Of a stretch of DNA of 17,708 nucleotides, positions 4,089-16,578 are shown piece by piece. Where the stretch lies: the NCBI GenBank assembly GCA_947259685.1, contig CAMYNC010000073.1:1-17708 (forward strand). The letters are read 5' to 3'. Made by a program: the position numbers and the translations under genes. Below the pieces are notes generated by a model. The model ran no database searches. It saw only the letters and a program-made list of their open reading frames with translations, and was not told the DNA's origin. Position 1 is the stretch's first letter. Each line of letters starts with the position of its first letter. This stretch comes from an uncultured Desulfuromonadales bacterium. GTDB taxonomy: Bacteria; Desulfobacterota; Desulfuromonadia; Desulfuromonadales; Geopsychrobacteraceae.

Positions 4089-5828
4089 TTATGACGGCCA
4101 CTTGCCAAAGGCCTGTTTTTCGAACTTCATAGTACCGTCACTGCCCTTGAAAATATTGATCCAGGCGTTCCAGTTTTTATTGTCGACATCGGGATAATCG
4201 AGCCGATAGTGACTGCAGCGACTTTCCTTACGCATGATTGAGGCCTTCAGTTTCATTTCGGCGTTGAAAATCATATTGGCGGTCTCATGGGCCAGTCTCA
4301 GCTCATGGAGATCTGCTGCCCGCAGCATGGGCAGATGATGATCCCGCAGCTCCTCGACATAGACCAGGGCCGCCTTCATCAGGTTCTCTTTTTTGATGTA
4401 GAGGACAAAGTTCGGGATCATGATCCCCTGCAAGGTCTGGGTGACCCAGGCCGGGCTGTAACCTTTGTCCCGTTTGAGTGGGGCGAGGATCTCAGTCTCG
4501 ATTGCCTTCTGTTTCGCCTTGGAAATACCGGCAAGGGTGATTCCTTTACAGTATTCCGCGGCCGCCTCGGAAACGATCGCTCCCTGAACGGCCGATCCGG
4601 CCAGTGACGAGCCAATCTGAGTGTAAATGGCGCCGGCCATGTAAGAACCAAGGGCATCGCCGGCGGCGTAGAGGCCGGGGATATTGGAAGCGCCTTGGCC
4701 GTTGATCGGCACCAGTCCTTCCGATTTATGGATTGACATCCCGGCGGATGAGCCACCGACTGAGGCTCCGGCCATCATGCCGGGAGGCGGACCGCCCCCC
4801 TCTTTCCCCTTGCCACCGGGTGGCGGACCGGGACGCCGACCATTTTCGGCAAATTCAGCCGGCCGGACAGGGCCGCCGGCGACCTGCTTTCCGTCACTCT
4901 GTCCGGGACGGCCTGTGAGGGGACCACCGGCCATATAGGCCTGGTAGCACTGCTCCACGCCGAGATCATGGTGGACTTCAACTCCGGTTAACCCCGGCTT
5001 GCGGTCGAACATCCCATGCCAGCCGTCATAGCAGGCCGCAGGGTTGGTCGCTGACCCCGAATGGCCGTCGTTCCATTCCTTGCCGGTCACCTTGGCGCCG
5101 ATCTTATAGGCCATGACCGTGCCGTCGTGGGTCAAGTCGCAGATCGGGAAGCCGTTAGGCTTGAAACCACCGGCACCGGAGCAGAGCACGACGCTCTTCG
5201 CTTTGAAAATATGGATCTTGCCCTCATCGAAGCTGAACCCGGCGGCTCCGGCGATGCGGCCGTCTTCCTTGATCAAGTGGGTGATCATGACCCGTTCTAT
5301 CACCGGGATATTGCGGTCTTCGATCGGCTTGCTGAAGGCGTTGAAATAGAGCGGCGAATCAAAAAATCCCCACTCGCGCAGTTCCTTGATCCGGGCAAGC
5401 GAGTGTTCGGCCATCTGCCGGGTGAAGACCGGATTGTTGGTTCCCAGTGCCGAGCGGGAGACGGTTGCCACGAACTCGTCCAGGCTCAGTTTTTCTTTGG
5501 CCGGATCGAAAGCAAATATCCCTTTCGCGAAAGGGGTCTGGCCAGATGAACCAAGCCGCCCTTTGGAAACCATCATCACTTTGGCCCCGGCATCATGGCC
5601 TTTCACCGCGGCAAACAGTCCGGCGATACCACTGCCGACCACCAGGATATCGGTTTCATGCTCTTGACCAGTCATGCTATCGACATCGATTTCCCGGATA
5701 TTGGCCTGACATTCGCTGTCCAGTGCCGAAACCCCCATGGCCGCCATTGCCGCAAGCCCGGCGGCACCGCCGGCAACAGCCATAAACTTGCGCCGCGACA
5801 GTCCGGTATTGCTCTCTTGATTGCTCAT
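4089..5828 (-). CDS. Tat-exported FAD-dependent reductase, fumarate reductase/AprA-like flavoprotein
   Basis: The 579-residue protein begins with a twin-arginine signal (SRRKFM at 11-16, then an Ala/Gly-rich hydrophobic stretch to about 35). The Rossmann dinucleotide motif follows (VVGSGIAGLFAA, 63-74), then VVLCSGAGGF near 213-222 and the second FAD contact GLYAAGD (385-391). The helical C-terminal domain carries MRKESRCSHYRLDYP (532-546), the arginine-containing signature of the succinate dehydrogenase, fumarate reductase and AprA flavoproteins. A Gly/Pro/Lys-rich low-complexity segment (about 301-357) interrupts the FAD domain, which is unusual. The gene overlaps the upstream membrane gene by ATGA, and the ferredoxin gene is one further upstream. 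The inferred role is a periplasmic reductase, or dehydrogenase, of an unknown organic acid or enoate, fed by the heme and FeS partners. The substrate cannot be named from the sequence. Confidence 0.88.
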   Translation of the reverse strand: MSNQESNTGLSRRKFMAVAGGAAGLAAMAAMGVSALDSECQANIREIDVDSMTGQEHETDILVVGSGIAGLFAAVKGHDAGAKVMMVSKGRLGSSGQTPFAKGIFAFDPAKEKLSLDEFVATVSRSALGTNNPVFTRQMAEHSLARIKELREWGFFDSPLYFNAFSKPIEDRNIPVIERVMITHLIKEDGRIAGAAGFSFDEGKIHIFKAKSVVLCSGAGGFKPNGFPICDLTHDGTVMAYKIGAKVTGKEWNDGHSGSATNPAACYDGWHGMFDRKPGLTGVEVHHDLGVEQCYQAYMAGGPLTGRPGQSDGKQVAGGPVRPAEFAENGRRPGPPPGGKGKEGGGPPPGMMAGASVGGSSAGMSIHKSEGLVPINGQGASNIPGLYAAGDALGSYMAGAIYTQIGSSLAGSAVQGAIVSEAAAEYCKGITLAGISKAKQKAIETEILAPLKRDKGYSPAWVTQTLQGIMIPNFVLYIKKENLMKAALVYVEELRDHHLPMLRAADLHELRLAHETANMIFNAEMKLKASIMRKESRCSHYRLDYPDVDNKNWNAWINIFKGSDGTMKFEKQAFGKWPS

Positions 5829-6466
5829 TTCTTTTCACTTTCTGTTTGATTCTGGACGACATAGCTTTTCAGCAGCAGATAGATCCCACCAGTCGCCAGC
5901 AATGCAATAAATGCCGTCATGGCGATATCTGTATGGCGGCCGAGATCGATCACGTGGAAGACTGCACTGACAATACAGAGCAGGGCCAGCGCCCCGTGAA
6001 TCGTGCGCCAGGTCTGGTATCTCAGCGGCAGCTTTTTCCGGGTCAGGGAGGTCAATCCGAGGATCAGCAGTAAAGACCAGGTTGTCAGACCGAAGAGAAT
6101 TCCAGAACTGGAGAAGGTGGTGACAATGGTGCCAAACGCTTCACCGGGGGCGATGCCCGCTTCGAAGAATCTGGGCACCACCAGTAAAAACGGGTGTATG
6201 AGCAGCACCGATACCGCAACGGAGCCGACGATTTTATGCCAGCTGAGCAGCTTGCTTAAGCTGATCTTTTTGACTGCGGCCCTGTTGGGCCGAGCGAGGT
6301 AGAACAGGCCGATCATCAGACTGAAAGCCAGGATGGTGACGACCGACAGCGATTCTTTCAGCAACGTGCGTTGCGGATAGCTGCCAGCGGCCCAGATCAT
6401 CAGCGGCATGCCGATCAAAACCGCCAGAATCTGCAGTTGGACATTGTTTTTGATATATTCAGCCAT
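5825..6466 (-). CDS. Ferric-reductase-like bis-heme b transmembrane protein
   Basis: The 213-residue protein has about six hydrophobic segments. Histidines at 77 (SWHKIVG) and 91 (LIHPFLL), and at 157 (RTIHGAL) and 171 (VFHVIDL), form two pairs each exactly 14 residues apart. This is the arrangement that ligates two stacked b hemes in ferric reductases, NADPH oxidases and MsrQ. No flavin or NAD domain is attached, so it should act as a transmembrane electron conduit between a cytoplasmic or quinone donor and the neighbouring flavoprotein. The start at 6466 directly follows the ferredoxin stop (TAA AG ATG) with GGGG upstream; an ATG four codons earlier at 6478 overlaps that stop and has no ribosome site. 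The stop overlaps the flavoprotein start, indicating translational coupling. Confidence 0.87.
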   Translation of the reverse strand: MAEYIKNNVQLQILAVLIGMPLMIWAAGSYPQRTLLKESLSVVTILAFSLMIGLFYLARPNRAAVKKISLSKLLSWHKIVGSVAVSVLLIHPFLLVVPRFFEAGIAPGEAFGTIVTTFSSSGILFGLTTWSLLLILGLTSLTRKKLPLRYQTWRTIHGALALLCIVSAVFHVIDLGRHTDIAMTAFIALLATGGIYLLLKSYVVQNQTESEKK

Positions 6467-6468
6467 CT

Positions 6469-6684
6469 TTAACCCCATGAAACGACAACCGGAATCGACT
6501 TATCCGGCGTAATAGTTATGGCATCGACCGGGCAATACATTCTGCACAGGTGGCAGATTTGGCAGTCGGCCGGATACTTAATAAATGCCTTGTTGGTTTT
6601 TTCGTCCGGGCGGATAACGTCCGTGGGGCAGGTTTTGATGCAGATCCCACAGCCGATGCAGCCCCTGATTTGTTTAATGGCCAT
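6469..6684 (-). CDS. Small 2[4Fe-4S] ferredoxin subunit
   Basis: The 71-residue protein contains two classic cluster motifs, CIGCGICIKTCP near residues 9-20 and CQICHLCRMYCP near 39-50. It has no signal peptide and no other domain. It resembles the cluster domain of AprB-like subunits, without their long C-terminal tail. ATG at 6684 was chosen because AAGGA lies seven bases before it; a TTG two codons upstream is too close to that site. It overlaps the receiver gene by 11 bp. It is probably the electron-transfer partner between the heme protein and the flavoprotein. If the flavoprotein folds before Tat export, the ferredoxin could be carried along as a hitchhiker; otherwise it would stay cytoplasmic. 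Confidence 0.88.
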   Translation of the reverse strand: MAIKQIRGCIGCGICIKTCPTDVIRPDEKTNKAFIKYPADCQICHLCRMYCPVDAITITPDKSIPVVVSWG

Positions 6685-7129
6685 GTTCAAATCCTTGTAA
6701 CTGGTGAAGAAGTTTGCGTTTAATGCTGTTTAAGTTGCTGTCAGGCGGCGGAATCTTTTGCAGCACATACTGCAGTGAGTTCACCAGCCCCTCTAACTCA
6801 CACGGCTTGCTGAGCACCAGATCAAAATCACTATCAGCTAGAAAAGGCGAAGCGGTCACAGCAACAACCGGCACATCTTTACGGATGATATGAATGTACT
6901 GGGCCAGGATATTGCCGTTTAATCTCGGCATGCAGATATCTGTTAGCACTAAGTCAAAGTCCTCGTTATTGAACCTGTCGATCGCTTCATAGCCATCATT
7001 GACGGCAACCACCGAAAAGCCGCTTTCGCTCAACCAGGTTTCAAGCAGTTGCAGATGGGCGTTGCTATCATCAACGACAAGAATTTTGTAGTTCGAGTTC
7101 TCGCTCTTTTCATTTAATTGCGCCTGCAT
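6674..7129 (-). CDS. Stand-alone response regulator receiver protein
   Basis: The 151-residue protein is a single CheY-like receiver: acidic pair D20/D21, phosphoacceptor D64 (VLTDICMP), T92 (VTAS) and K108 (SKPC). A short polar tail (about 125-151) carries no DNA-binding or enzymatic output. ATG at 7129 was chosen for its AAGGAAAGG ribosome site and because the receiver fold starts right after it; the frame remains open upstream only by running across the small secreted gene in another phase. It sits between that gene and the ferredoxin, so it is co-expressed with the redox module. It has no adjacent kinase of its own, and BaeS is the only kinase in the window. It may act by protein contact or as a phosphate sink. 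Confidence 0.88.
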   Translation of the reverse strand: MQAQLNEKSENSNYKILVVDDSNAHLQLLETWLSESGFSVVAVNDGYEAIDRFNNEDFDLVLTDICMPRLNGNILAQYIHIIRKDVPVVAVTASPFLADSDFDLVLSKPCELEGLVNSLQYVLQKIPPPDSNLNSIKRKLLHQLQGFEHGH

Positions 7130-7149
7130 TGTTTTGCCTTTCCTTAGAG

Positions 7150-7177
7150 AGACAGGGATGCCGGAGCATCCCTGTCT
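7150..7177 (-). terminator. Strong hairpin after the small secreted gene
   Basis: A perfect 12-bp stem (AGACAGGGATGC with its complement) closes a 4-nt loop, 14 bases after the stop of the small gene and about 20 bases before the receiver's start. No T-run follows on the minus strand, so read-through into the receiver and redox genes is likely. It probably stabilises or uncouples the small-gene message, or attenuates the downstream genes. A similar hairpin lies at the same distance after the paralogous gene at 12864. Confidence 0.5.
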
Positions 7178-7191
7178 ATGTGTCGAGATCC

Positions 7192-7458
7192 CTAACGTGG
7201 GCCACCTTCCGGCATGTTGTTTGGAACTGCAGCCAGTTGACCGTCTTTTTCCTGACAAGTCGCCTCTAAAGTCTCGCCTCGACGTCCTGTGAAGGTGACA
7301 CTGTCTCCAGCACTCTTGCCTTCGCACGCCGCAATCGCTTCAGGAGGAGGTCCTTGAGGGCGGCCCTGACCTCTATTGCCTGCAGCAGAAACGATCATCG
7401 GCATCAGGCTTATCAAACCGACAATTACAGCGACTTTGAGAAATCCAGGTTTTTTCAT
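7192..7458 (-). CDS. Small secreted two-cysteine protein
   Basis: The 88-residue protein has a Sec signal (1-26, ending VSAAG), a Gly/Pro-rich linker (GNRGQGRPQGPPP, 27-39) and a compact domain with two cysteines (C45, C68) and the pattern A-C-x-G-x-x-A-G-D-S-V-T ... G-x-x-x-E-A-x-C-Q. The domain is a paralog of residues about 41-82 of the protein at 12864-14207 (20 of 42 identical by my count). The two cysteines could form a disulfide in the periplasm. I do not recognise a named family; its position behind a BaeR-like site recalls the role of Spy in E. coli, but there is no sequence similarity to claim. AAAGGAG lies eight bases before the ATG. It is the first gene of the seven-gene run. Confidence 0.8.
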   Translation of the reverse strand: MKKPGFLKVAVIVGLISLMPMIVSAAGNRGQGRPQGPPPEAIAACEGKSAGDSVTFTGRRGETLEATCQEKDGQLAAVPNNMPEGGPR

Positions 7459-7514
7459 CTTGAAACTCCTTTCGGTCTGTCGACCGGTTGCTGGGTTATT
7501 GATTTGTCGTCACA

Positions 7515-7547
7515 ATAACGCTGGAATAAGGAGCGAATAGGGAAGAA
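7515..7547 (-). promoter_or_regulatory. Putative BaeR-type operator A
   Basis: Read leftward, three consecutive 11-bp units occur: TTCTTCCCTAT, TCGCTCCTTAT and TCCAGCGTTAT. The same array lies before two other genes (12469-12501, 14258-14290). Eleven-bp direct repeats are typical of OmpR-family regulators. Similarity to copy B continues for another 11 bp (7548-7558). It lies 57 bp upstream of the small secreted gene's ATG, a plausible place for activation of the whole run down to the channel gene. Confidence 0.7.
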
Positions 7548-7558
7548 ATGTGAAAATG

Positions 7559-7818: not shown

Positions 7819-9036
7819 TCATTCATAGCGCAATGCATCGATAGGGTTGAGATTGGCGGCTTTGCGCGCCGGGTAAAACCCGAAGAACACCCCAACGGCC
7901 CCGGTGAAAACAACGGTTGTCATCACCACTGCGGGGTTTACGACCGCGCTGACTCCCAGCAGGCTGCCGACTCCCCAGGCTGCGCCCAAGCCGGACAAGA
8001 TACCGATCAAGCCGCCAAGCAGGCTGAGGATGGCAGCTTCGATGAGAAACTGCGCTAAAATATCGAGCGGTCGGGCACCAATGGCGAGACGAATGCCAAT
8101 CTCTCGCGTGCGCTCGGTGACTGAGACCAGCATGATATTCATGATGCCGATCCCTCCCACGAGCAAGGAAACCCCGGCGATAGAACTCAGCAGCAGGGTC
8201 AGGGTGCCGGTCACGCGGGTGGCGATCTCGACAATCTCGGTCTGATCGCGGATGATGAAATCATCCTCAGCATCGGCGGCGAGTCGGTGCTCAGAACGCA
8301 GCAGGGTCGTCAACTCCTCCTTGGCCGCGTCCATCGCGTCGGAGCTGATGGCGCTTGCCGATATATCGTGAATCGTCTTGCCGTTACTCAGGCGATACAG
8401 CACGGTGTTGTCGGGAGCGAAGATGATATCGTCCTGATCGTTGCCCATGGACGATTGCCCCTTTTCGGCCATCACGCCGATCACTTTAAAGGGCACATTG
8501 CGGATTCGCAGACGCGCCCCGACGGGGTTCTGGTTCAGGAAGAGTTCATCGGCAACCGTCTTGCCGAGCACCGCGACCTTGGCCCGCGTTTTACAATCCC
8601 GAGCGGTGAAGAAGGCCCCGCTTTCCATCTCATAATTGCGGATCGACAGGTAGTTTGGGGCAACACCGGTGATCGTCGTGTTCCAGTTGTTGCTTCCGGC
8701 GATCACCTGCCCGTTGGCGCGAACCTCGGCAGAGACCCAGCGCAGCTGAGTCGCATATTTCTCCAACCGGGTGACATCATCCATTGTCAGGCTCGGCCGC
8801 GACCCGGCGCCGCCACTCACACCACCGGAGTCCACGCTACCCGGCCGGACCATCAGCAGGTTGGTTCCCAGGGAGGCGACTTCCCCTTCGATATCAGCCT
8901 GGGATCCCTCCCCCAGAGCGACCATGGTGATCACCGAGGCGACGCCGATGATAATGCCGAGCATGGTCAGCAGACTGCGCATCTTGTTACGGGCGATGCT
9001 CTTCAGGGCGACGATGATCAACTTATGCCACCGCAT
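7819..9036 (-). CDS. MacB-type ABC transporter permease
   Basis: The 405-residue protein has the MacB/FtsX layout. There is a first membrane helix near 20-42 after KSIARNKMRSLLTMLGIIIG, a large periplasmic domain (about 45-270), and three C-terminal helices starting with the conserved GGIGIMNIMLVSVTERTREIGIRLAIGA. In this family the permease does not pass substrate through itself but drives the periplasmic adaptor and TolC by conformational coupling. The ATPase is encoded separately here, unlike E. coli MacB, where it is fused. The start overlaps the ATPase gene by 14 bp. It is the last gene of the efflux operon. The substrate is unknown; MacB homologs export macrolides, lipopeptides and siderophores. 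Confidence 0.93.
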   Translation of the reverse strand: MRWHKLIIVALKSIARNKMRSLLTMLGIIIGVASVITMVALGEGSQADIEGEVASLGTNLLMVRPGSVDSGGVSGGAGSRPSLTMDDVTRLEKYATQLRWVSAEVRANGQVIAGSNNWNTTITGVAPNYLSIRNYEMESGAFFTARDCKTRAKVAVLGKTVADELFLNQNPVGARLRIRNVPFKVIGVMAEKGQSSMGNDQDDIIFAPDNTVLYRLSNGKTIHDISASAISSDAMDAAKEELTTLLRSEHRLAADAEDDFIIRDQTEIVEIATRVTGTLTLLLSSIAGVSLLVGGIGIMNIMLVSVTERTREIGIRLAIGARPLDILAQFLIEAAILSLLGGLIGILSGLGAAWGVGSLLGVSAVVNPAVVMTTVVFTGAVGVFFGFYPARKAANLNPIDALRYE

Positions 9037-9778
9037 CAGACACCTCCCCGGCCAGCGTCACCAGGTCGGCCTGCGCATTGCGTGGTTGACCGTTGATTTC
9101 ATCGCGCAACAGCACACCGTCACGCAGTTCGATCAGACGCCCGGCATATTTGGCGACCTCCGTTTCATGGGTGACCACCACCAGCGTCAGACCGTCGCGA
9201 TTCAGCTTCTGAAACAGGGCCAGAATTTCCAGGGTCGTGCGGCTGTCAAGGTTGCCGGTAGGTTCGTCGGCAAAGATAAGCGCCGGGCTGGTCACCAGGG
9301 CACGGGCAATAGCGACCCGCTGTTGCTGTCCGCCGGAAAGTTGGTTCGGTTCATGGTCCAGGCGATTTCCCAACCCGACGCGCTCTAATGCCGCAATGGA
9401 ACTCTGGCGGGGATTGGCAGTGGTGCGATGTCGATCATAGAGCAAAGGCAGTTCCACATTTTCCAACGCCGTGGTGCGGGCCAGAAGATTGAAGCCTTGG
9501 AACACGAAACCGATCTTGGTATTGCGCAGATCAGCGAGCTGCCTGCGATTCAAGCCTTCGACGGTCACGCCTTCAAAGCAGTAGCTACCGCTGGTCGGGG
9601 TGTCGAGACAGCCCAGAATGTTCATCAGGGTCGATTTGCCGCTGCCCGAGCTGCCCATGATGGCGACAAACTCGCCCCGGCCGATCTCCAGCGAGAGGTC
9701 ATCCAGTGCCCTGACCTCAACATCCCCCAAGGAAAAAACCTTGCAGATATGACTGAGACTGATCTGTGCTTCGCTCAT
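9023..9778 (-). CDS. MacB/LolD-type ABC transporter ATPase
   Basis: The 251-residue ATPase shows Walker [10 protein letters not shown] (42-50), Q-loop VFQGF (92-96), signature LSGGQQQR (147-154), Walker B LIFADEP with D171 and E172, D-loop GNLDS and switch H204 (VTHE). Together with the adaptor upstream and the permease downstream it forms a MacAB-type pump. The ATG overlaps the adaptor stop in an ATGA arrangement, so the two are translationally coupled. Confidence 0.95.
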
Positions 9779-11016
9779 GGACGCTGCCCTCCACCGGGTC
9801 CTTGCCCCGGGCCACCTCCTGGCCCGCCTCCGCCACCCGGCGGTCCTCCCTGCCCCTGCCCCTGGTTCATAAAACTGAACAGAGAGAAGCCCTCTTCTTC
9901 AGCATCTTCCCCCTCCTGTTTCCTGCCGATGGCAACCTGCATTCCGGCAGCCAGTTCCCCGCCGGAGATCTCGGTCAACAGTCCGTCGCTCTCTCCCGCA
10001 GTGATCTGGATCGGCCTCAAGCGGCCATCGGCCTGCCGGCTGAAAACCTGGCTGCCGTCGTTACTCTCGCGATTCGCATCGGGAGTGAAATTGAGCGCGG
10101 CGACCGGAACCAGCAGGGCGTTTTCAGACTGGTGGACAACAAAGTCGACGGTTGCCGTCATCCCCGGCATCAGCTGCCCTGATTCGTTACTCGCGTCGAC
10201 GATCACCGTGTAGGTCACGACGTTGTCGACAGTTGATGGCTGCAGGCGGATCTGACGGACCGTGCCGGTGAAGATCGAATCGGGATAGCTCTGCACCTCG
10301 AAACGTACCTGTTGCCCCTGGCGGATCTGACCGATATCGGTTTCATCGACCTGGGTTTCGATCTGCATCTGCGCCAGATCTTCTGCAACCAGGAACAGGG
10401 TCGGGGTACTGAGGCTCGCCGCCACCGTCTGCCCGGCATCGACACTGCGGTCGATGACCGTGCCGTTAATCGGCGAACGGATCACCGTATGCTCAAGATT
10501 GATCCGGGCTTGCTGCAGGTTGGCTTCGGCCGATTGCAGGGCGGCTTTGGTCGTATCGACAGCTGTTCGGATGGGGAGAAACTCCTGTTCTGAGATGTAG
10601 CCCTTTTCTTGGAGCGGAGCGTTCCGACGGAACTCGTCCTCTGCTTGTTTTAATTCTGCCCGGGCTTTAAGTACATCTGCTTTGGCTTTATTGACCGAGG
10701 CGTTGAACGATGACTGATCCAGTACCGCCAGCACCTGGCCTTTATTGACCTGGTCATTATAATCGACCAGCAGTTGCTCAATTGTCCCCGAAGCCTGAGT
10801 GCCGATTTCCACCGTTTCCACAGCAGCCAGGGTCCCCGTGCTGGAGACGATGACCTCAAAGTTCCCCCGGCTCACCTGAACGAACTTAAATGAGGGTCTT
10901 GACCCTGGTGGCCCCTGCTGCGCAAAGGCCCACCAGGCAAAAATCACCAGGGTCAGAGCCCCGATGAGCACGACAGCTGATTTGATAACTCTTGAGGTTT
11001 TTCGGTTCGAAATCAT
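9775..11016 (-). CDS. MacA-type periplasmic adaptor (membrane fusion protein)
   Basis: The 413-residue protein has an N-terminal membrane anchor (about 12-32), then a lipoyl/barrel-sandwich half motif (GTLAAVETVEIGTQASGTI), an alpha-helical hairpin rich in charged residues, the second half (IRSPINGTVIDRSVDAGQTV) and beta-barrel domains. It bridges the ABC permease to TolC. The last about 25 residues are almost only G, P and Q, an odd low-complexity tail, and GPPGSRP follows the anchor. ATG at 11016 was chosen because the TolC stop ends one base earlier, with GGAG upstream; an ATG further upstream at 11085 would lie inside tolC and add a non-signal extension. Confidence 0.93.
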   Translation of the reverse strand: MISNRKTSRVIKSAVVLIGALTLVIFAWWAFAQQGPPGSRPSFKFVQVSRGNFEVIVSSTGTLAAVETVEIGTQASGTIEQLLVDYNDQVNKGQVLAVLDQSSFNASVNKAKADVLKARAELKQAEDEFRRNAPLQEKGYISEQEFLPIRTAVDTTKAALQSAEANLQQARINLEHTVIRSPINGTVIDRSVDAGQTVAASLSTPTLFLVAEDLAQMQIETQVDETDIGQIRQGQQVRFEVQSYPDSIFTGTVRQIRLQPSTVDNVVTYTVIVDASNESGQLMPGMTATVDFVVHQSENALLVPVAALNFTPDANRESNDGSQVFSRQADGRLRPIQITAGESDGLLTEISGGELAAGMQVAIGRKQEGEDAEEEGFSLFSFMNQGQGQGGPPGGGGGPGGGPGQGPGGGQRP

Positions 11017-11017
11017 T

Positions 11018-12430
11018 CTAGCTTTTCTCCAGTTCCAGAGCGGCAAGCAGCGGCTCCAAGTTCCCCAGATAGTAGGCAACCGCAATTTCCTGGGTCACCA
11101 AATCGTATCTGGCCTGTATCTGGTCAAACGCTGCTGACACGTACTGGGTTCGTGATTGCGTGAGTTCCACAAGGGTCGAGGCCCCCACCCGGTAGCGCTC
11201 TTCGTAGGAGTGCAGAGATTGACGGGCAGCGGTTAACTTGCTTTCGACAACGTCGACCCGTTTCTGGGTTGTGCGATATTCCTGGATGGCCTGGGATATT
11301 TCGAGACCGAGCTGCAACTGTGTTTGCTTGAGGGTTAATTGTTCATTACGCTGCGCAATTTTGGCCTGCGCAATATTGTTGCGGGTCAGGTAACGATCAA
11401 AAAGTGGAATTGAAAAAGAAATCCCAACTGTGGAGTTGAGGTTGTCTTCCATGAACTGGTCCGAAAAATGGTACTCATCACCGAGACTGCTGTAATCAGA
11501 AGCCAGGCTGGCAAACAGGTCAACCTTGGGCAAGCGACCTGCCTGGCTTTGGCGTATCTGTTGCCCAGCCGCTTCAACCTGTCGCTGCTGAGCTTTAACA
11601 TCAGAGCGTTCCGCCAGAGCAAGAAGGGTCAGTTGGTCGAGGTCTTCATCAGCGAACGGCAGTGACAGCTTCTCGAAATCAGGTGTGGCGACTTGGTAAC
11701 GGATCGTTGGTAGCAGCCCCATGGTTTGCATAAGGACCAATTTGCTGACGTTGAGGGTACGTTTTTCCTCCAACAGATCCAGCTCTGCCTGCTTGGTTTC
11801 CGCCTGTTGCTGGTACAGATCGCTGATCGGAAGTTTGCCCGCCTGATAGAAGGTCTCAATGCTCTTCAATAGCTTGCGGTTCTGTTCCAGGTTTTCCTCT
11901 TCGACGTGGATCAATGCCCGATCGGTAAGCACCTGAATAAAATTTGCAATTGTCTCGAAAATCAGGGTCTGTTCTGCTCGAGAAAGAGTTTCCCGCCCTG
12001 CTCCCAATTCGAGTTCGGCACTTTTGAGCGCGGCGATGTCGGCAAATCCGTTGAACAGGTTAACCGTTGAGGACAGCTCGGTACTGATTGACGAAAAGCT
12101 TCGATTTTCTGTCTGACTCGTGGTTTGGTCGAACGCCTTGTCGAAGCGCTTCGATCCGGTGCCTGCAATGACAAGGTCTGGGTAGAGATTCGTCCGTTGC
12201 TGAGAAACAGAAATTTCCGCACTCTCCACCGTGTTAACTTGCTGGGCTAAGCCGGGATTGTTCTTCAATGCTATGCGCACAGCCTGTTCAAGAGAAAGAA
12301 CCTGCTCGGCTTGAATCACGCAGTTACCATGGGTCGGAAGGGCCAAAACAATTAAAGTGATGAGTGCTACCGGCCAAGTTCTTAAAAACATTGTCCTTGG
12401 CCTATTTTTCTTATTCATGAGGGTGGGCAA
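11018..12430 (-). CDS. TolC-family outer membrane efflux protein
   Basis: After a signal peptide (hydrophobic stretch TWPVALITLIVLALP) the mature protein starts with LSLEQAVRIALKNNPGL, the usual outer membrane efflux protein opening. Two homologous repeats rich in long amphipathic helices follow; each half contributes to the trimeric outer membrane barrel and periplasmic tunnel. Total length is about 457-470 residues, normal for the family. The start is uncertain. TTG at 12430 has AAGGA eight bases upstream, in a leader (ACCGAAGGA) shared with the other two BaeR-linked genes; ATG at 12418 has no ribosome site, and ATG at 12391 has AAGGA too close. The frame is open to 12544, but that part contains operator B and is not expected to be translated. 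It is the first gene of the efflux operon. Confidence 0.92.
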   Translation of the reverse strand: MPTLMNKKNRPRTMFLRTWPVALITLIVLALPTHGNCVIQAEQVLSLEQAVRIALKNNPGLAQQVNTVESAEISVSQQRTNLYPDLVIAGTGSKRFDKAFDQTTSQTENRSFSSISTELSSTVNLFNGFADIAALKSAELELGAGRETLSRAEQTLIFETIANFIQVLTDRALIHVEEENLEQNRKLLKSIETFYQAGKLPISDLYQQQAETKQAELDLLEEKRTLNVSKLVLMQTMGLLPTIRYQVATPDFEKLSLPFADEDLDQLTLLALAERSDVKAQQRQVEAAGQQIRQSQAGRLPKVDLFASLASDYSSLGDEYHFSDQFMEDNLNSTVGISFSIPLFDRYLTRNNIAQAKIAQRNEQLTLKQTQLQLGLEISQAIQEYRTTQKRVDVVESKLTAARQSLHSYEERYRVGASTLVELTQSRTQYVSAAFDQIQARYDLVTQEIAVAYYLGNLEPLLAALELEKS

Positions 12431-12468
12431 GGTGACTATCCTTCGGTGGATTGTTGAGTAGGAAAACA

Positions 12469-12501
12469 ATAGCGCCGGAATAAGGAGCAAATAGGGAAGA
12501 A
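12469..12501 (-). promoter_or_regulatory. Putative BaeR-type operator B
   Basis: Three 11-bp units read leftward: TTCTTCCCTAT, TTGCTCCTTAT and TCCGGCGCTAT. The match to copy A extends through CATTTTCACA, just upstream of unit 1 (to 12512). The site lies 39-78 bp before the candidate tolC starts. It would place the tolC-macA-macB operon under the adjacent BaeSR system, like mdtABC and acrD in E. coli. Confidence 0.7.
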
Positions 12502-12520
12502 ATGTGAAAATGCAGATGGA

Positions 12521-12863: not shown

Positions 12864-14207
12864 TCAGTGGTTCTGTTGCTTTTGCCGCATCCCTGCCTTC
12901 GCTTTCTGTGTATGTTTTCCCGCATCGCGGACTAAGCGAACATAGTTGTAGATGCGTTCCGGCTCTTCACCGGCAGGCCCACCTTGAACCTTGGTATCAA
13001 AGCGCACCGCGCCTGCGCCATGCACATCATCGCCCTCGGGACCGACGGCATAACCGAAGGCCACATACCAAGCGTAGTAATAGCCGGGAGCTTGCGGGCT
13101 AAAGTAGGCGGAGGTGCTGGACCAGAAATAGGCGTCCTCGTCCGTTATATTGAAATAGTTTTCGTCAATCGCAGGGTAAACACCGGAATAATCGACGATG
13201 CTTTGCAGCTCTTTGACGTTCGGCACCCGCCAGTTGTGATAACCTAAGTAATTTTCGGCATTTTTCTGCTCCGCAAAGGCCAGTGCCTCCTGCCAATTGA
13301 GACCGACATAGCTGTCCTCCTGCGCCCACATCAAGCCGGTCGCAGCATCGGTGATGGTGCCATTGTCGTTGTCGATGAATGTATTGACTCCATAGGTATC
13401 GCCCTGCACGCAGCGGACATATTTAGCGGCCATCGGCTGGTCGTCGCGGCCATCGGGATAGGCTTTGATGTGTCCGGTGGCATGATTGACACCGATTGCG
13501 GAAGGTGCGCCGCCGTGGGTGGTGCCAACTTCATAGTAATTGCTCGACCAGTATTGCTGTGCTTTGAACTCCGGAGTATTGGCCAGGACAAAATACTCGG
13601 TATCGATGAAGGGCCAGCCGGTTGTAAAGTCGCTGATCGAGAAGAGTTCCTTCAGGCTGGGGGTGCGCCAATCGTCGGAGTCTGCCAACGACAGTGATGC
13701 GCAATAATTCTGGGCGTCCGCCCAACTGTAAGCTGTTTCCGCCGGTGTCTGCTGCCACAACAATCCCGTATTGTTGTCGCTGACCGTGCTGTCACCGTTG
13801 TCAGTGAAACTGAACTCTTTTCCGCTGAACTGAGCATCCTGCCCGAAGAAGGCCTCGCCCCTTTCCGGGCAGCTGATTTCAGCGCCGCTGTCGTCGTAGC
13901 AGCCCGCTTGGCCGGTGCCGATCAGCGGATAGGATTTGCCGCGATGATCTCTTTTGAGCAGCTGGTTGGGAATAGCAAGCAACTCGCCGCCATAGTCCTG
14001 GCAACTTGCTTCGACGCTTTTCCCCTGGCCAAGCGCCATTGTGACGCTGTCGCCCGCTTGCCGGCCGTCACAGGCCACGATCATTTCGGTCACAAGTCCC
14101 TGCGGAGGACCGGCTTTCCTGAAGTCACCATTCGCCCAAACGGTCAGCGGCACCAGGCTGAGCAGACCCAAAGCCGTTGTTACTTTCATCACAGCACCTT
14201 TTTTCAT
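12864..14207 (-). CDS. Secreted protein: small two-cysteine domain fused to DUF1566 repeats
   Basis: The 447-residue protein has a Sec signal (1-26, ending VWANG) and then a domain (about 41-82, C46 and C69) paralogous to the separate 88-residue protein at 7192-7458. Two DUF1566 units follow, beginning KSYPLIGTGQAGCYDD and sharing TDNGDSTVSDNNTGLLWQQ, DWRTPSLKEL, NYLGYHNWRVPNVKELQSIVDY and IYNYVRLVRDAG with the protein at 2852-4075. It is in effect a fusion of two gene products that are separate in the other operon. A basic tail (HTQKAKAGMRQKQQ) ends it. AAGGAG lies eight bases before the ATG; an in-frame ATG at residue 7 is a less likely start. It is transcribed divergently from baeSR and sits behind operator C. 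Its function is unknown; it is probably periplasmic or surface-exposed. Confidence 0.9.
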   Translation of the reverse strand: MKKGAVMKVTTALGLLSLVPLTVWANGDFRKAGPPQGLVTEMIVACDGRQAGDSVTMALGQGKSVEASCQDYGGELLAIPNQLLKRDHRGKSYPLIGTGQAGCYDDSGAEISCPERGEAFFGQDAQFSGKEFSFTDNGDSTVSDNNTGLLWQQTPAETAYSWADAQNYCASLSLADSDDWRTPSLKELFSISDFTTGWPFIDTEYFVLANTPEFKAQQYWSSNYYEVGTTHGGAPSAIGVNHATGHIKAYPDGRDDQPMAAKYVRCVQGDTYGVNTFIDNDNGTITDAATGLMWAQEDSYVGLNWQEALAFAEQKNAENYLGYHNWRVPNVKELQSIVDYSGVYPAIDENYFNITDEDAYFWSSTSAYFSPQAPGYYYAWYVAFGYAVGPEGDDVHGAGAVRFDTKVQGGPAGEEPERIYNYVRLVRDAGKHTQKAKAGMRQKQQNH

Positions 14208-14257
14208 TTTTCATTCTCCTTCCGGTCTAGCGACCCGTCATTGTTGATGAGGTAAAA

Positions 14258-14290
14258 ATAGAGTCGGAATGAGGAGCAAATAAGGAAGAA
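14258..14290 (-). promoter_or_regulatory. Putative BaeR-type operator C in the divergent region
   Basis: Three 11-bp units read leftward: TTCTTCCTTAT, TTGCTCCTCAT and TCCGACTCTAT. Extending unit 1 upstream gives TTTTTCTTCCTTATTTGC (14276-14293), which matches the E. coli BaeR consensus as I recall it, TTTTTCTCCATDATTGGC, at 15 of 18 positions without gaps. It lies 51 bp before the DUF1566 gene and about 210 bp before baeS, so it could serve that gene and autoregulate the two-component operon. Confidence 0.72.
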
Positions 14291-14498
14291 AAAAGGATAT
14301 CTTTCAAAAACGAAGTCTGTGTGTGTCTGAACGGTCAGGGGAGTGGGGCCGTATAAATTTCCATTGGTCCTGCATATTTCTTCCACATTCAGGGTTTATC
14401 CTGATTTCGCGACTTCAGAAGATAGAGAACTAAAGAAAAGGTTGGCCATTTCCAGTCGGCCATTGTTATTAAAGGGAACAACCAAGACAGAGGTTCCG
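14291..14498 (+). other. Leader or promoter region of baeSR
   Basis: The frame of baeS is open through most of this stretch but has no ribosome site or signal-like sequence, so it is treated as untranslated. TATAAA at 14352-14357 is a possible -10 element, but no convincing -35 lies 17 bp upstream, as expected for an activator-dependent promoter. Confidence 0.3.
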
Positions 14499-15896
14499 GT
14501 GACCATACAGATTAAACACAAACTTTTCTTCACCCTGTTGCTGACCAGCATTGTGGTTTCAAGCGGTATGTTTCTGTTCATGCAGTGGAGCTTCGACCAT
14601 GGGTTTCTCAACTACGTCAACAGCCAGGAACTGAAGGAGCTGGATCAACTGTCTGAACGCCTTGTGGCAAGTTACGCCAGAGAAGGGGACTGGGCTTTTT
14701 TAATGAACAACCCGCAGCGTTGGGAACAATTGCTGCGCGCCGCCGATGAAAGCATGGAGCGGCCAGGGCCAGGGCCGAAGAAGTTCATGCAACCTGCCGG
14801 TCCTCCGCCAGGAAGGGGGCCTAGGATTGCTCTCTATGATGCGGAAAAGCAAGGCATATTTGGCCCCCCCTTCGGAGAGCAAAATCTTCAACTTCAGCCG
14901 CTGCATTACCAGGAGAACCTGATCGGTTACCTGGCGATCGTCCCGGTCAAGGAGCTTTCGGAGGCCGGTGACCTTCTGTTTGTTGAACAGCAGACCGAGT
15001 CTTTCGCCCTGGTCGCGCTGGCCATGGCAGCACTCTCGTTACTGCTCTCCTTTCCGCTGACCATCCATCTGTTACGGCCGATCAAGCAACTGACTGCGGG
15101 GACCCGCAAACTGATCGCCGGTCGCTATACAACCCGCATCCCGGTGGCCAGCAAGGATGAACTTGGTCAGCTCTCTACTGATTTCAACAGTTTGGCAATG
15201 ACGCTGGAGAAGAACGAGCAAGCCCGGCAGCAGTGGGTAGCAGACATCTCTCACGAACTGCGCACCCCGCTGGCAGTACTGCGTGGCGACATCGAGGCAC
15301 TGCAGGACGGCATCCGCCAGCCCGGACCACAAACTTTCGAAGCCTTGCATTCTGAAGTCATGCATTTGGGACGGCTGGTTGACGATCTTTACGAACTTTC
15401 CATGTCCGATATCGGTGCGCTCAACTACAAAAAGGTTACCGTCGATCCAGTCGGGATTTTAAAGGGAAGCGTCGAACTGTTTGAGCAACGTTTTGCCGTG
15501 AAGAAATTGCGCCTCCGTTCAGAGCTGCCGATAGATTCCTCTTTATCCTTGCTCGCAGATCCCGACAGGCTGCAACAGCTGTTCACCAACCTGCTGGAAA
15601 ACAGTCTGCGTTACACCGATACACCGGGGCAGCTGAACATCCGCATGAAGACCGAGAACAATTCGCTCTTTTTCTATTTCGAGGATTCAGCGCCGGGGGT
15701 AACGGCAGAGCAGCTGCAAAAACTGTTCGACCGTCTTTATCGGGTCGAAACCTCCCGCAATCGTGCCCGGGGCGGAGTTGGACTGGGGCTGGCGATCTGC
15801 AGAAACATCATTGAGGCCCATCAGGGGGAAATTGAGGCTGAGACTTCAGTGCTTGGGGGCCTCAAGATCACAATCAGGTTCCCATTGCAGGGCTGA
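14499..15896 (+). CDS. baeS: BaeS-like envelope-stress sensor histidine kinase
   Basis: The 465-residue kinase has a membrane helix (8-30), a periplasmic domain (31-165), a second helix (about 168-190), HAMP (190-240), H-box ISHELRTPLAVLRGD with H252, N-box LLENSLRYTD with N368, G1 DSAPG (396-400) and G2 GVGLGLA (426-432). The H-box region, LVDDLYELSMSDIGALNYKK and the whole catalytic domain read like E. coli BaeS. The periplasmic Pro/Gly tract (ERPGPGPKKFMQPAGPPPG, about 87-105) sits where E. coli BaeS also has a PGPG stretch. It senses envelope damage and phosphorylates BaeR. GTG at 14499 was chosen for AGAGG five bases before it and a length matching BaeS (467); an ATG at 14343 would add 52 residues with no precedent. 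It lies ten bp upstream of baeR. Confidence 0.9.
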   Translation: MTIQIKHKLFFTLLLTSIVVSSGMFLFMQWSFDHGFLNYVNSQELKELDQLSERLVASYAREGDWAFLMNNPQRWEQLLRAADESMERPGPGPKKFMQPAGPPPGRGPRIALYDAEKQGIFGPPFGEQNLQLQPLHYQENLIGYLAIVPVKELSEAGDLLFVEQQTESFALVALAMAALSLLLSFPLTIHLLRPIKQLTAGTRKLIAGRYTTRIPVASKDELGQLSTDFNSLAMTLEKNEQARQQWVADISHELRTPLAVLRGDIEALQDGIRQPGPQTFEALHSEVMHLGRLVDDLYELSMSDIGALNYKKVTVDPVGILKGSVELFEQRFAVKKLRLRSELPIDSSLSLLADPDRLQQLFTNLLENSLRYTDTPGQLNIRMKTENNSLFFYFEDSAPGVTAEQLQKLFDRLYRVETSRNRARGGVGLGLAICRNIIEAHQGEIEAETSVLGGLKITIRFPLQG

Positions 15897-15906
15897 GGAC
15901 TTACAA

Positions 15907-16578
15907 ATGGAAGAGAAAATTCTGATCGTCGAGGACGAACAACGGCTGGCCGAACTGCATCGCGACTACCTGCAACAATCCGGCTACGCGACGGAATGGT
16001 TGGTGGACGGTCTGAAGGTGCTCCCCTGGGTTAAAGAACATGCCCCGGCCTTGATCCTTCTCGACTTGATGCTCCCCGGCAAAGATGGGCTGGAGATCTG
16101 CAAAGAGATCCGCAGTTTCTCCAATGTGCCGATCATCATGGTGACCGCCCGGGTCGAAGAGATCGACCGGCTTCTTGGATTGGAACTGGGGGCGGACGAC
16201 TATATCTGCAAACCGTTCAGCCCCCGCGAAGTGGTAGCGCGGGTCAAAACCGTTCTGCGCCGCACCTCGCCACAAACACAGGAAGAAACACCACAACTTT
16301 TGACCCTTGACGAGGAAAGTTATCAAGCGACTCTGCAGGGGCGAAAGCTCGACTTAACCGCAGTCGAATTTAAACTACTAAGTATCTTGGCTCAGAAACC
16401 GGGACGGATTTATTCCCGTGATCAGTTGATGGATCGCCTCTACAGTGATCAAAGGATTGTTTGTGACCGAACCATCGACAGTCATATCAAGAAACTACGT
16501 AAAAAGATTTCTGCAGCGGCCCCGGAGTTGGAAGTGATCCATTCGATTTATGGGGTCGGTTATAAATACGAGGCTTAA
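15907..16578 (+). CDS. baeR: BaeR-like OmpR-family response regulator
   Basis: The 223-residue regulator has a receiver with D10/E11, phosphoacceptor D53 (LLDLMLPG), T80 and K102. The stretch EEIDRLLGLELGADDYICKP is nearly identical to E. coli BaeR. The C-terminal winged helix carries LDLTAVEFKLL, RDQLMDRLY, the recognition helix DRTIDSHIKKLRKKI and the wing YGVGYKYEA. OmpR-family proteins bind 11-bp direct repeats as dimers, which fits the three arrays in this window. The start has GAGGA eight bases upstream and follows baeS by ten bp; the frame stays open upstream only inside baeS. Confidence 0.93.
   Translation: MEEKILIVEDEQRLAELHRDYLQQSGYATEWLVDGLKVLPWVKEHAPALILLDLMLPGKDGLEICKEIRSFSNVPIIMVTARVEEIDRLLGLELGADDYICKPFSPREVVARVKTVLRRTSPQTQEETPQLLTLDEESYQATLQGRKLDLTAVEFKLLSILAQKPGRIYSRDQLMDRLYSDQRIVCDRTIDSHIKKLRKKISAAAPELEVIHSIYGVGYKYEA

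Follow-up and report, generated by a model that had tools for sequence, protein, structure and literature searches.

Known tandem operators and the BaeR box

Operators with tandem 11-bp units are already known for PhoB, ArcA and DzrR, and the sites described here are of that kind. The PHO box of PhoB consists of two 11-nt direct repeats which are bound head-to-tail with contact to sigma-70, as summarized in a review (PMC4415409). Two 11-nt direct repeats are also present at the sites described here, where the head-to-tail binding and the sigma-70 contact known for PhoB would be expected by analogy; the half-site (CTGTCAT) and the regulon of the PHO box are different. The ArcA box is composed of direct repeats spaced 11 bp from centre to centre, often three to five of them (PMC3798270). 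It shares the 11-bp direct repeats with the present sites, but its position relative to promoters is variable, and direct recruitment of polymerase was judged unlikely in that report. The AdeR-like regulator DzrR of Dickeya protects tandem CTCCAT repeats in a 25-bp footprint before an efflux operon (PMC10052836); by our own count within the footprint, these repeats are 11 bp apart. Two direct repeats ahead of an efflux operon are common to both cases, whereas DzrR is a different regulator, reported as likely phosphorylation-independent, and the efflux is of the RND type (PMC10052836).

For E. coli BaeR, the consensus TTTTTCTCCATDATTGGC of Nishino 2005 is quoted in PMC3799227. Peaks of BaeR in a ChIP-exo study were located upstream of spy and of mdtABCD-baeSR, with none at acrD among the results given there (PMC7657598). 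No description of a BaeR-type envelope-stress response in the anaerobes considered here was found in literature searches, and the term BaeR is absent from the main text of PMC3333781 on regulators of D. vulgaris.

Repeat structure and promoter phasing of the blocks

The window analysed is a stretch of 17,708 nt from an uncultured Desulfuromonadales bacterium. Three near-identical blocks on the minus strand at 7515-7547, 12469-12501 and 14258-14290 (A, B and C), reported in the initial annotation, were present as described and far beyond chance expectation. Repeat comparison extended the blocks to 47 nt, over which B was 94% and C 70% like A. The 11-bp period assigned to them was retained, whereas the assignment of three units ending in a degenerate third was replaced by two strong units (TTCYTCCNYAT, 11 bp) and a weaker extra unit upstream. 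In minus-strand reading, the strong units are TTCTTCCCTAT-TCGCTCCTTAT in A, TTCTTCCCTAT-TTGCTCCTTAT in B and TTCTTCCTTAT-TTGCTCCTCAT in C, and in each case the proximal unit ends exactly 8 nt before a -10 hexamer, TATTGT in A and B and TATTTT in C (Table 1). The degenerate downstream "third unit" keeping TAT consists of the 8-nt spacer and the three bases with which this hexamer begins. It was rejected as a unit because its CC pair is not conserved and mainly TA is kept. No sigma-70 promoter with a -35 element was found at the boxes.

The count of three sites was incomplete, as a fourth site of the same geometry (D) faces baeS. The window matrix scores positions 14367-14388 (+) at 15.8, upstream of the GTG start of baeS at 14499. 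A D-like layout (unit, 8 nt, TAnnnT) was found on the baeS strand in 11 of 13 further BaeS loci of at least 57% identity (with: L001-L003, L006-L008, L010, L011 and L117-L119; without: L004 and L005) and in none of 27 BaeS loci at 42-50% identity. Loci L113-L116, which repeat L001-L004, and L009 and L120, with too little upstream DNA, were omitted.

Table 1. Predicted operator-promoters and associated genes in the window.
Feature	Position	Strand	Remarks
FAD flavoprotein, fumarate reductase type	4089..5828	-	Pfam PF00890, PF02910
Ferric-reductase-like membrane protein	5825..6478	-	Pfam PF01794
CheY-like receiver protein	6674..7129	-	Pfam PF00072; start codon inferred
88-aa secreted small protein (GPPPEAIAACEGK... 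family)	7192..7458	-	First gene after A; "secreted" judged from the N-terminus
Operator-promoter A (predicted)	7512..7558	-	Weak unit 7548-7558; strong units 7537-7547 and 7526-7536; 8-nt spacer; -10 TATTGT 7512-7517
Efflux operon after B	7819..12391	-	TolC-like 11018-12391 and MacA-like 9775-11010, from family searches
ABC ATPase and permease of the efflux operon after B	9023..9778 and 7819..9036	-	Named from sequence alone
Operator-promoter B (predicted)	12466..12512	-	Weak unit 12502-12512; strong units 12491-12501 and 12480-12490; spacer; -10 TATTGT 12466-12471
Lcl_C protein	12864..14207	-	Pfam PF07603; downstream of C
Operator-promoter C (predicted)	14255..14301	-	Weak unit 14291-14301; strong units 14280-14290 and 14269-14279; spacer; -10 TATTTT 14255-14260
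Operator-promoter D (predicted), before baeS	14367..14402	+	Weak unit 14367-14377; strong unit TTCTTCCACAT 14378-14388; spacer; -10 TATCCT 14397-14402
BaeS-like sensor kinase	14499..15896	+	GTG start, inferred; best NCBIfam match BaeS (PRK10549), 475 bits against a cut-off of 603; BaeS_SmeS, 471.6 against 500
BaeR-like response regulator	15907..16578	+	Best NCBIfam match BaeR (PRK10710), 337.2 bits against a cut-off of 380

With a matrix built only from the six units of the window, 21 matches of at least 20 bits (overlapping registers included) were obtained at 14 distinct places in 8 of 16 related delta BaeS loci; shuffles of the locus set (242 kb, window included) gave an expectation of 0.15 matches. 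In loci chosen by protein, strong units on the same strand were 11 nt apart in 20 of 25 pairs, 22 nt apart in two, and at any other distance in at most one. The count over all loci (29 of 37 pairs) is partly circular, as it includes loci fetched by a pattern with fixed 11-bp spacing. The hexamer TAnnnT was located 8 nt after unit 2 at 20 of 46 sites from protein-chosen loci, at an offset of 19 (8 + 11) at five, and elsewhere at two or fewer; when pattern-chosen loci and the three sites of the window were added, 32 of 71 sites had it at 8 nt, with six at the next best offset. That it was limited to 20 of the 46 protein-chosen sites speaks against the reading of the blocks as BaeR-controlled promoters. 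Head-to-tail direct repeats 11 bp apart and a preferred distance to the -10 hexamer (8 nt) were both found, as in tandem operators of the OmpR/PhoB family.

An alignment of 71 unique sites was made from the window and the fetched delta loci at scores of 16 or more, some of them probably chance or coding matches, all of which were counted. Strong-unit columns reached up to 1.9 bits; a weaker TTTCCAYAT-like unit was kept upstream, whilst downstream conservation was largely confined to the first T and to the TA of the hexamer.

Loci picked by protein were used for counting upstream sites scoring at least 14, after removal of 2 of 21 88-aa loci and 1 of 30 BaeS loci with too little upstream DNA. 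A tandem site was present on the strand of the 88-aa gene in 12 of 19 loci and on the other strand in none of them. For BaeS, a site on the divergent strand, as with copy C, was present in 25 of 29 loci (the remaining four scored below 14) and one on the other strand in 1 of 29. The mean for 200 column-shuffled matrices was 1.6 (88-aa) and 2.1 (BaeS) loci; single shuffles reached the observed 12 and 25, presumably permutations which leave the matrix nearly unchanged.

The close likeness of A and B could also stem from a recent duplication of one promoter without regulatory meaning. This explanation is hardly credible, since the box precedes orthologous genes across many genomes, and the three copies in L001, at the 88-aa gene, tolC and a second OmpR-type gene, keep the units while spacers and flanks differ.

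The BaeSR-like pair and the boxed genes

The protein encoded beside copy C had been called a BaeR ortholog. It is closest to E. coli BaeR, which was its best PDB match (4b09, E 1.5e-81; next 1.9e-49), and identity in the alignment was 57% to E. coli BaeR, 41% to PhoB, 38% to CpxR and 43% to CreB. The recognition segment DRTIDSHIK is identical in the regulator and E. coli BaeR. The best NCBIfam matches of both the kinase and the regulator fall below the curated cut-offs (Table 1), however, and the pair is therefore named BaeSR-like and not filed as equivalog.

The 88-aa protein belongs to no Pfam or NCBIfam family, and its predicted structure (pLDDT 70, pTM 0.45) had no PDB match at E 0.001 or better. 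Box A is conserved upstream of its gene in relatives. All four genes of the cluster at 4089-7458 also occur in L001, L003 and L008; in L010 the genes for the 88-aa, ferric-reductase-like and flavoprotein members are clustered without a CheY-like match. The cluster is perhaps a periplasmic redox module under BaeR. An N-terminal stretch of the Lcl_C protein is a homolog of the 88-aa protein, with 47% identity over 83 aa; the small protein therefore also exists as a domain.

In related loci, boxes head genes for 88-aa family, Lcl_C-like, TolC-MacAB, BaeS, second OmpR-type, EF-hand, DUF3300, DUF6515 and LTXXQ proteins. Pfam analysis of ten hand-picked box-headed proteins assigned six to PF07813. 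Of the 22 BaeS loci in the sister clade (L121-L142, 45-50% identity), 17 have a Spy-like LTXXQ gene on the divergent strand no more than 1.5 kb away, not always as the first gene. The Spy-like profile, which also finds E. coli Spy (E 2e-15), was derived from five proteins whose loci or genomes are all among these 17. No Spy-like gene was found at the same place in BaeS loci of at least 57% identity, several of which are short, and none was seen in the window itself. Efflux, Spy and the own operon, the known kind of BaeSR target, are all represented among the boxed loci.

A second OmpR-type protein replaces the Lcl_C gene divergent from baeS and carries a box in L001 (9019-9573, minus strand), L003 (9005-9511, minus strand) and L004; Pfam analysis was applied to the L001 protein only, the receiver of which is below the Pfam cut-off. 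Boxes are present upstream of DUF3300-like proteins in L087, L091, L099 and L107 (Pfam: L087 protein only). To our knowledge, such proteins are not known as BaeR targets. In L011 (at 3190) and L049 (at 2515), boxes precede EF-hand-like proteins with PPPP stretches (Pfam: L011 protein only), and both loci also hold a boxed 88-aa gene. The regulon, initially described as local, is not purely so, since boxes of D. kysingii also occur on other contigs, before an Lcl-like ORF and a tolC homolog.

Association with BaeS, enteric sites and proposed mechanism

Genomes were surveyed with a 22-base pattern at up to one mismatch, using the reversed pattern as control, and were assigned as BaeS+ at an E cut-off of 1e-90. 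The motif was found in 25 of 47 BaeS+ and 6 of 89 BaeS- genomes of the Desulfuromusa kysingii order (136 genomes; Fisher p 2e-9), and in 17 of 39 BaeS+ and 34 of 154 BaeS- genomes of the order of Desulfopila sp. IMCC35006 (193 genomes; p 0.009), both p values overstating the association because related genomes are not independent. In the first order, 47 matches in BaeS+ and 6 in BaeS- genomes were obtained, with 11 for the reversed pattern in all 136; in the second, there were 29 and 46 (0.30 per BaeS- genome), with 27 for the reversed pattern in 193 (0.14). The association in the Desulfopila order is weaker, significant, yet not clean. Occurrence of the motif in genomes lacking baeR had been named as a finding which would speak against BaeR; followed by means of BaeS, such occurrence was near chance level in the D. 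kysingii order, whereas the result was only partly clean in the Desulfopila order. At one mismatch, 22 of 47 and 22 of 39 BaeS+ genomes, respectively, had no match. Among the motif-bearing BaeS+ genomes, 16 of 25 in the first order and 9 of 17 in the second had a site within 700 nt of BaeS, with about 0.002 expected in each order.

One of seven BaeS- regions from both orders (L197) encodes, divergently from a boxed MacAB operon, a BaeS-like kinase of 34% identity that falls below the cut-off. The other six had no homolog of the regulon genes searched, and some of these regions end at contig ends. In L194 (4485-4539), which belongs to a genome lacking BaeS at the cut-off, four strong 11-bp units and a weaker one form an array; the regulon genes searched had no homolog within about 4 kb of it.

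The motif excess in BaeS- genomes of the Desulfopila order could indicate that another OmpR/PhoB-family regulator binds, such as the product of the second OmpR-type gene under copy C in L001, L003 and L004, and that BaeR is a mere neighbour. Tandem 11-bp sites are general in this family (PMC3798270, PMC4415409), and the second OmpR-type protein is itself encoded downstream of a box in these three loci. However, no second OmpR-type gene was found beside the sites of the window, the motif is enriched in BaeS+ genomes, and it occurs at E. coli mdtA, a BaeR target. Binding by another regulator is therefore considered unlikely.

Likeness to the published BaeR consensus was confirmed. The numbers of matches to TTTTTCTCCATDATTGGC given initially (15 of 18 positions for C, 12 of 18 for A and B) are exact, A and B alone being weak, as 2.0% of random 61-nt window strands reach 12. 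The best site of the E. coli mdtA promoter recovered by the window matrix was TTCCTCCATTT-TTCTCCCTTAT, followed by 8 nt (TGGCTGGC) and TACACT (score 20.8). Tandem 11-bp units, 8 nt to a -10-like hexamer and an efflux operon with baeSR are thus shared, and the description of the present sites as more regular than the single E. coli box is unsupported for mdtA, itself a tandem 11-bp site. In contrast, the published 18-bp consensus spans the proximal unit plus flank, the Desulfobacterota units are nearer to exact repeats than the E. coli box, and spy and acrD of E. coli fit poorly. The latter two were not recovered; their scores (6.3 and 6.5) were no higher than those of other matches in the same fragments and speak against a uniform rule in E. 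coli. The unit TTCCTCCATTT is also located 19 nt (11 + 8) before TACACT in a Hafnia locus with an mdtA-like ORF and in a Rahnella locus with an mdtD-like ORF before baeS, the ORF names being judged from sequence. No match of at least 20 was obtained with the window matrix in 305 kb of 15 enteric loci. In three enteric genomes, searching at two mismatches yielded 3, 7 and 5 matches, as against 3, 2 and 2 with the pattern reversed, so that little can be gained from the strict pattern in such genomes.

Of the readings considered, control of the blocks as promoters by the neighbouring BaeR-like response regulator, half-site binding and activation included, is assigned a probability of about 0.87. 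It builds on the repeat, its spacing, the -10 phasing, the conservation, the co-occurrence with BaeS and the mdtA geometry observed here. A BaeR-type operator defining a regulon, as proposed in the initial annotation, is best supported by the tests run, namely closeness to BaeR, enrichment in BaeS+ genomes and orthologous targets. Two BaeR subunits, and at some sites three, would bind the 11-bp half-sites head-to-tail on one face of the DNA. With 8 nt between the proximal half-site and the -10 hexamer, the operator would take the place of the -35 element, which is absent from these promoters. Phosphorylated BaeR would recruit sigma-70 RNA polymerase, as PhoB does, and in the window may switch on the secreted small protein with the redox cluster, the TolC-MacAB-type pump, the Lcl_C protein and its own baeSR.

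Since the units extend over the -35 position and stop 8 nt short of the -10 hexamer, BaeR bound to them might instead repress by covering the promoters. Repression is very unlikely, since no consensus -35 remains for unaided polymerase and the geometry is identical at mdtA, the operon of which shows lower baeS expression under ethanol stress once baeR is knocked out (PMC7657598). The 8-nt preference and the lack of a consensus -35 would fit an activator standing in for the -35 element.

The layout common to distant relatives and the E. coli mdtA promoter suggests an old, conserved control switch. A wider proposal, for which we would give slightly less than even odds, is that BaeR operators from Desulfobacterota to Enterobacteria are in truth tandem 11-bp sites at a fixed 8 nt from the -10 hexamer, with the published 18-bp box representing only the promoter-proximal half, and that in the Desulfuromusa lineage an ancestral divergent Spy chaperone was exchanged for the secreted family of about 88 aa tied to a periplasmic redox cluster. 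The analysis defines a BaeR-type site precisely and in a searchable form that extends beyond enterobacteria, and points to the mdtA box of E. coli being one half of a tandem site. For an envelope-stress response in anaerobes, likely targets can be named, among which the uncharacterised secreted family of about 88 aa stands out as recurrent.
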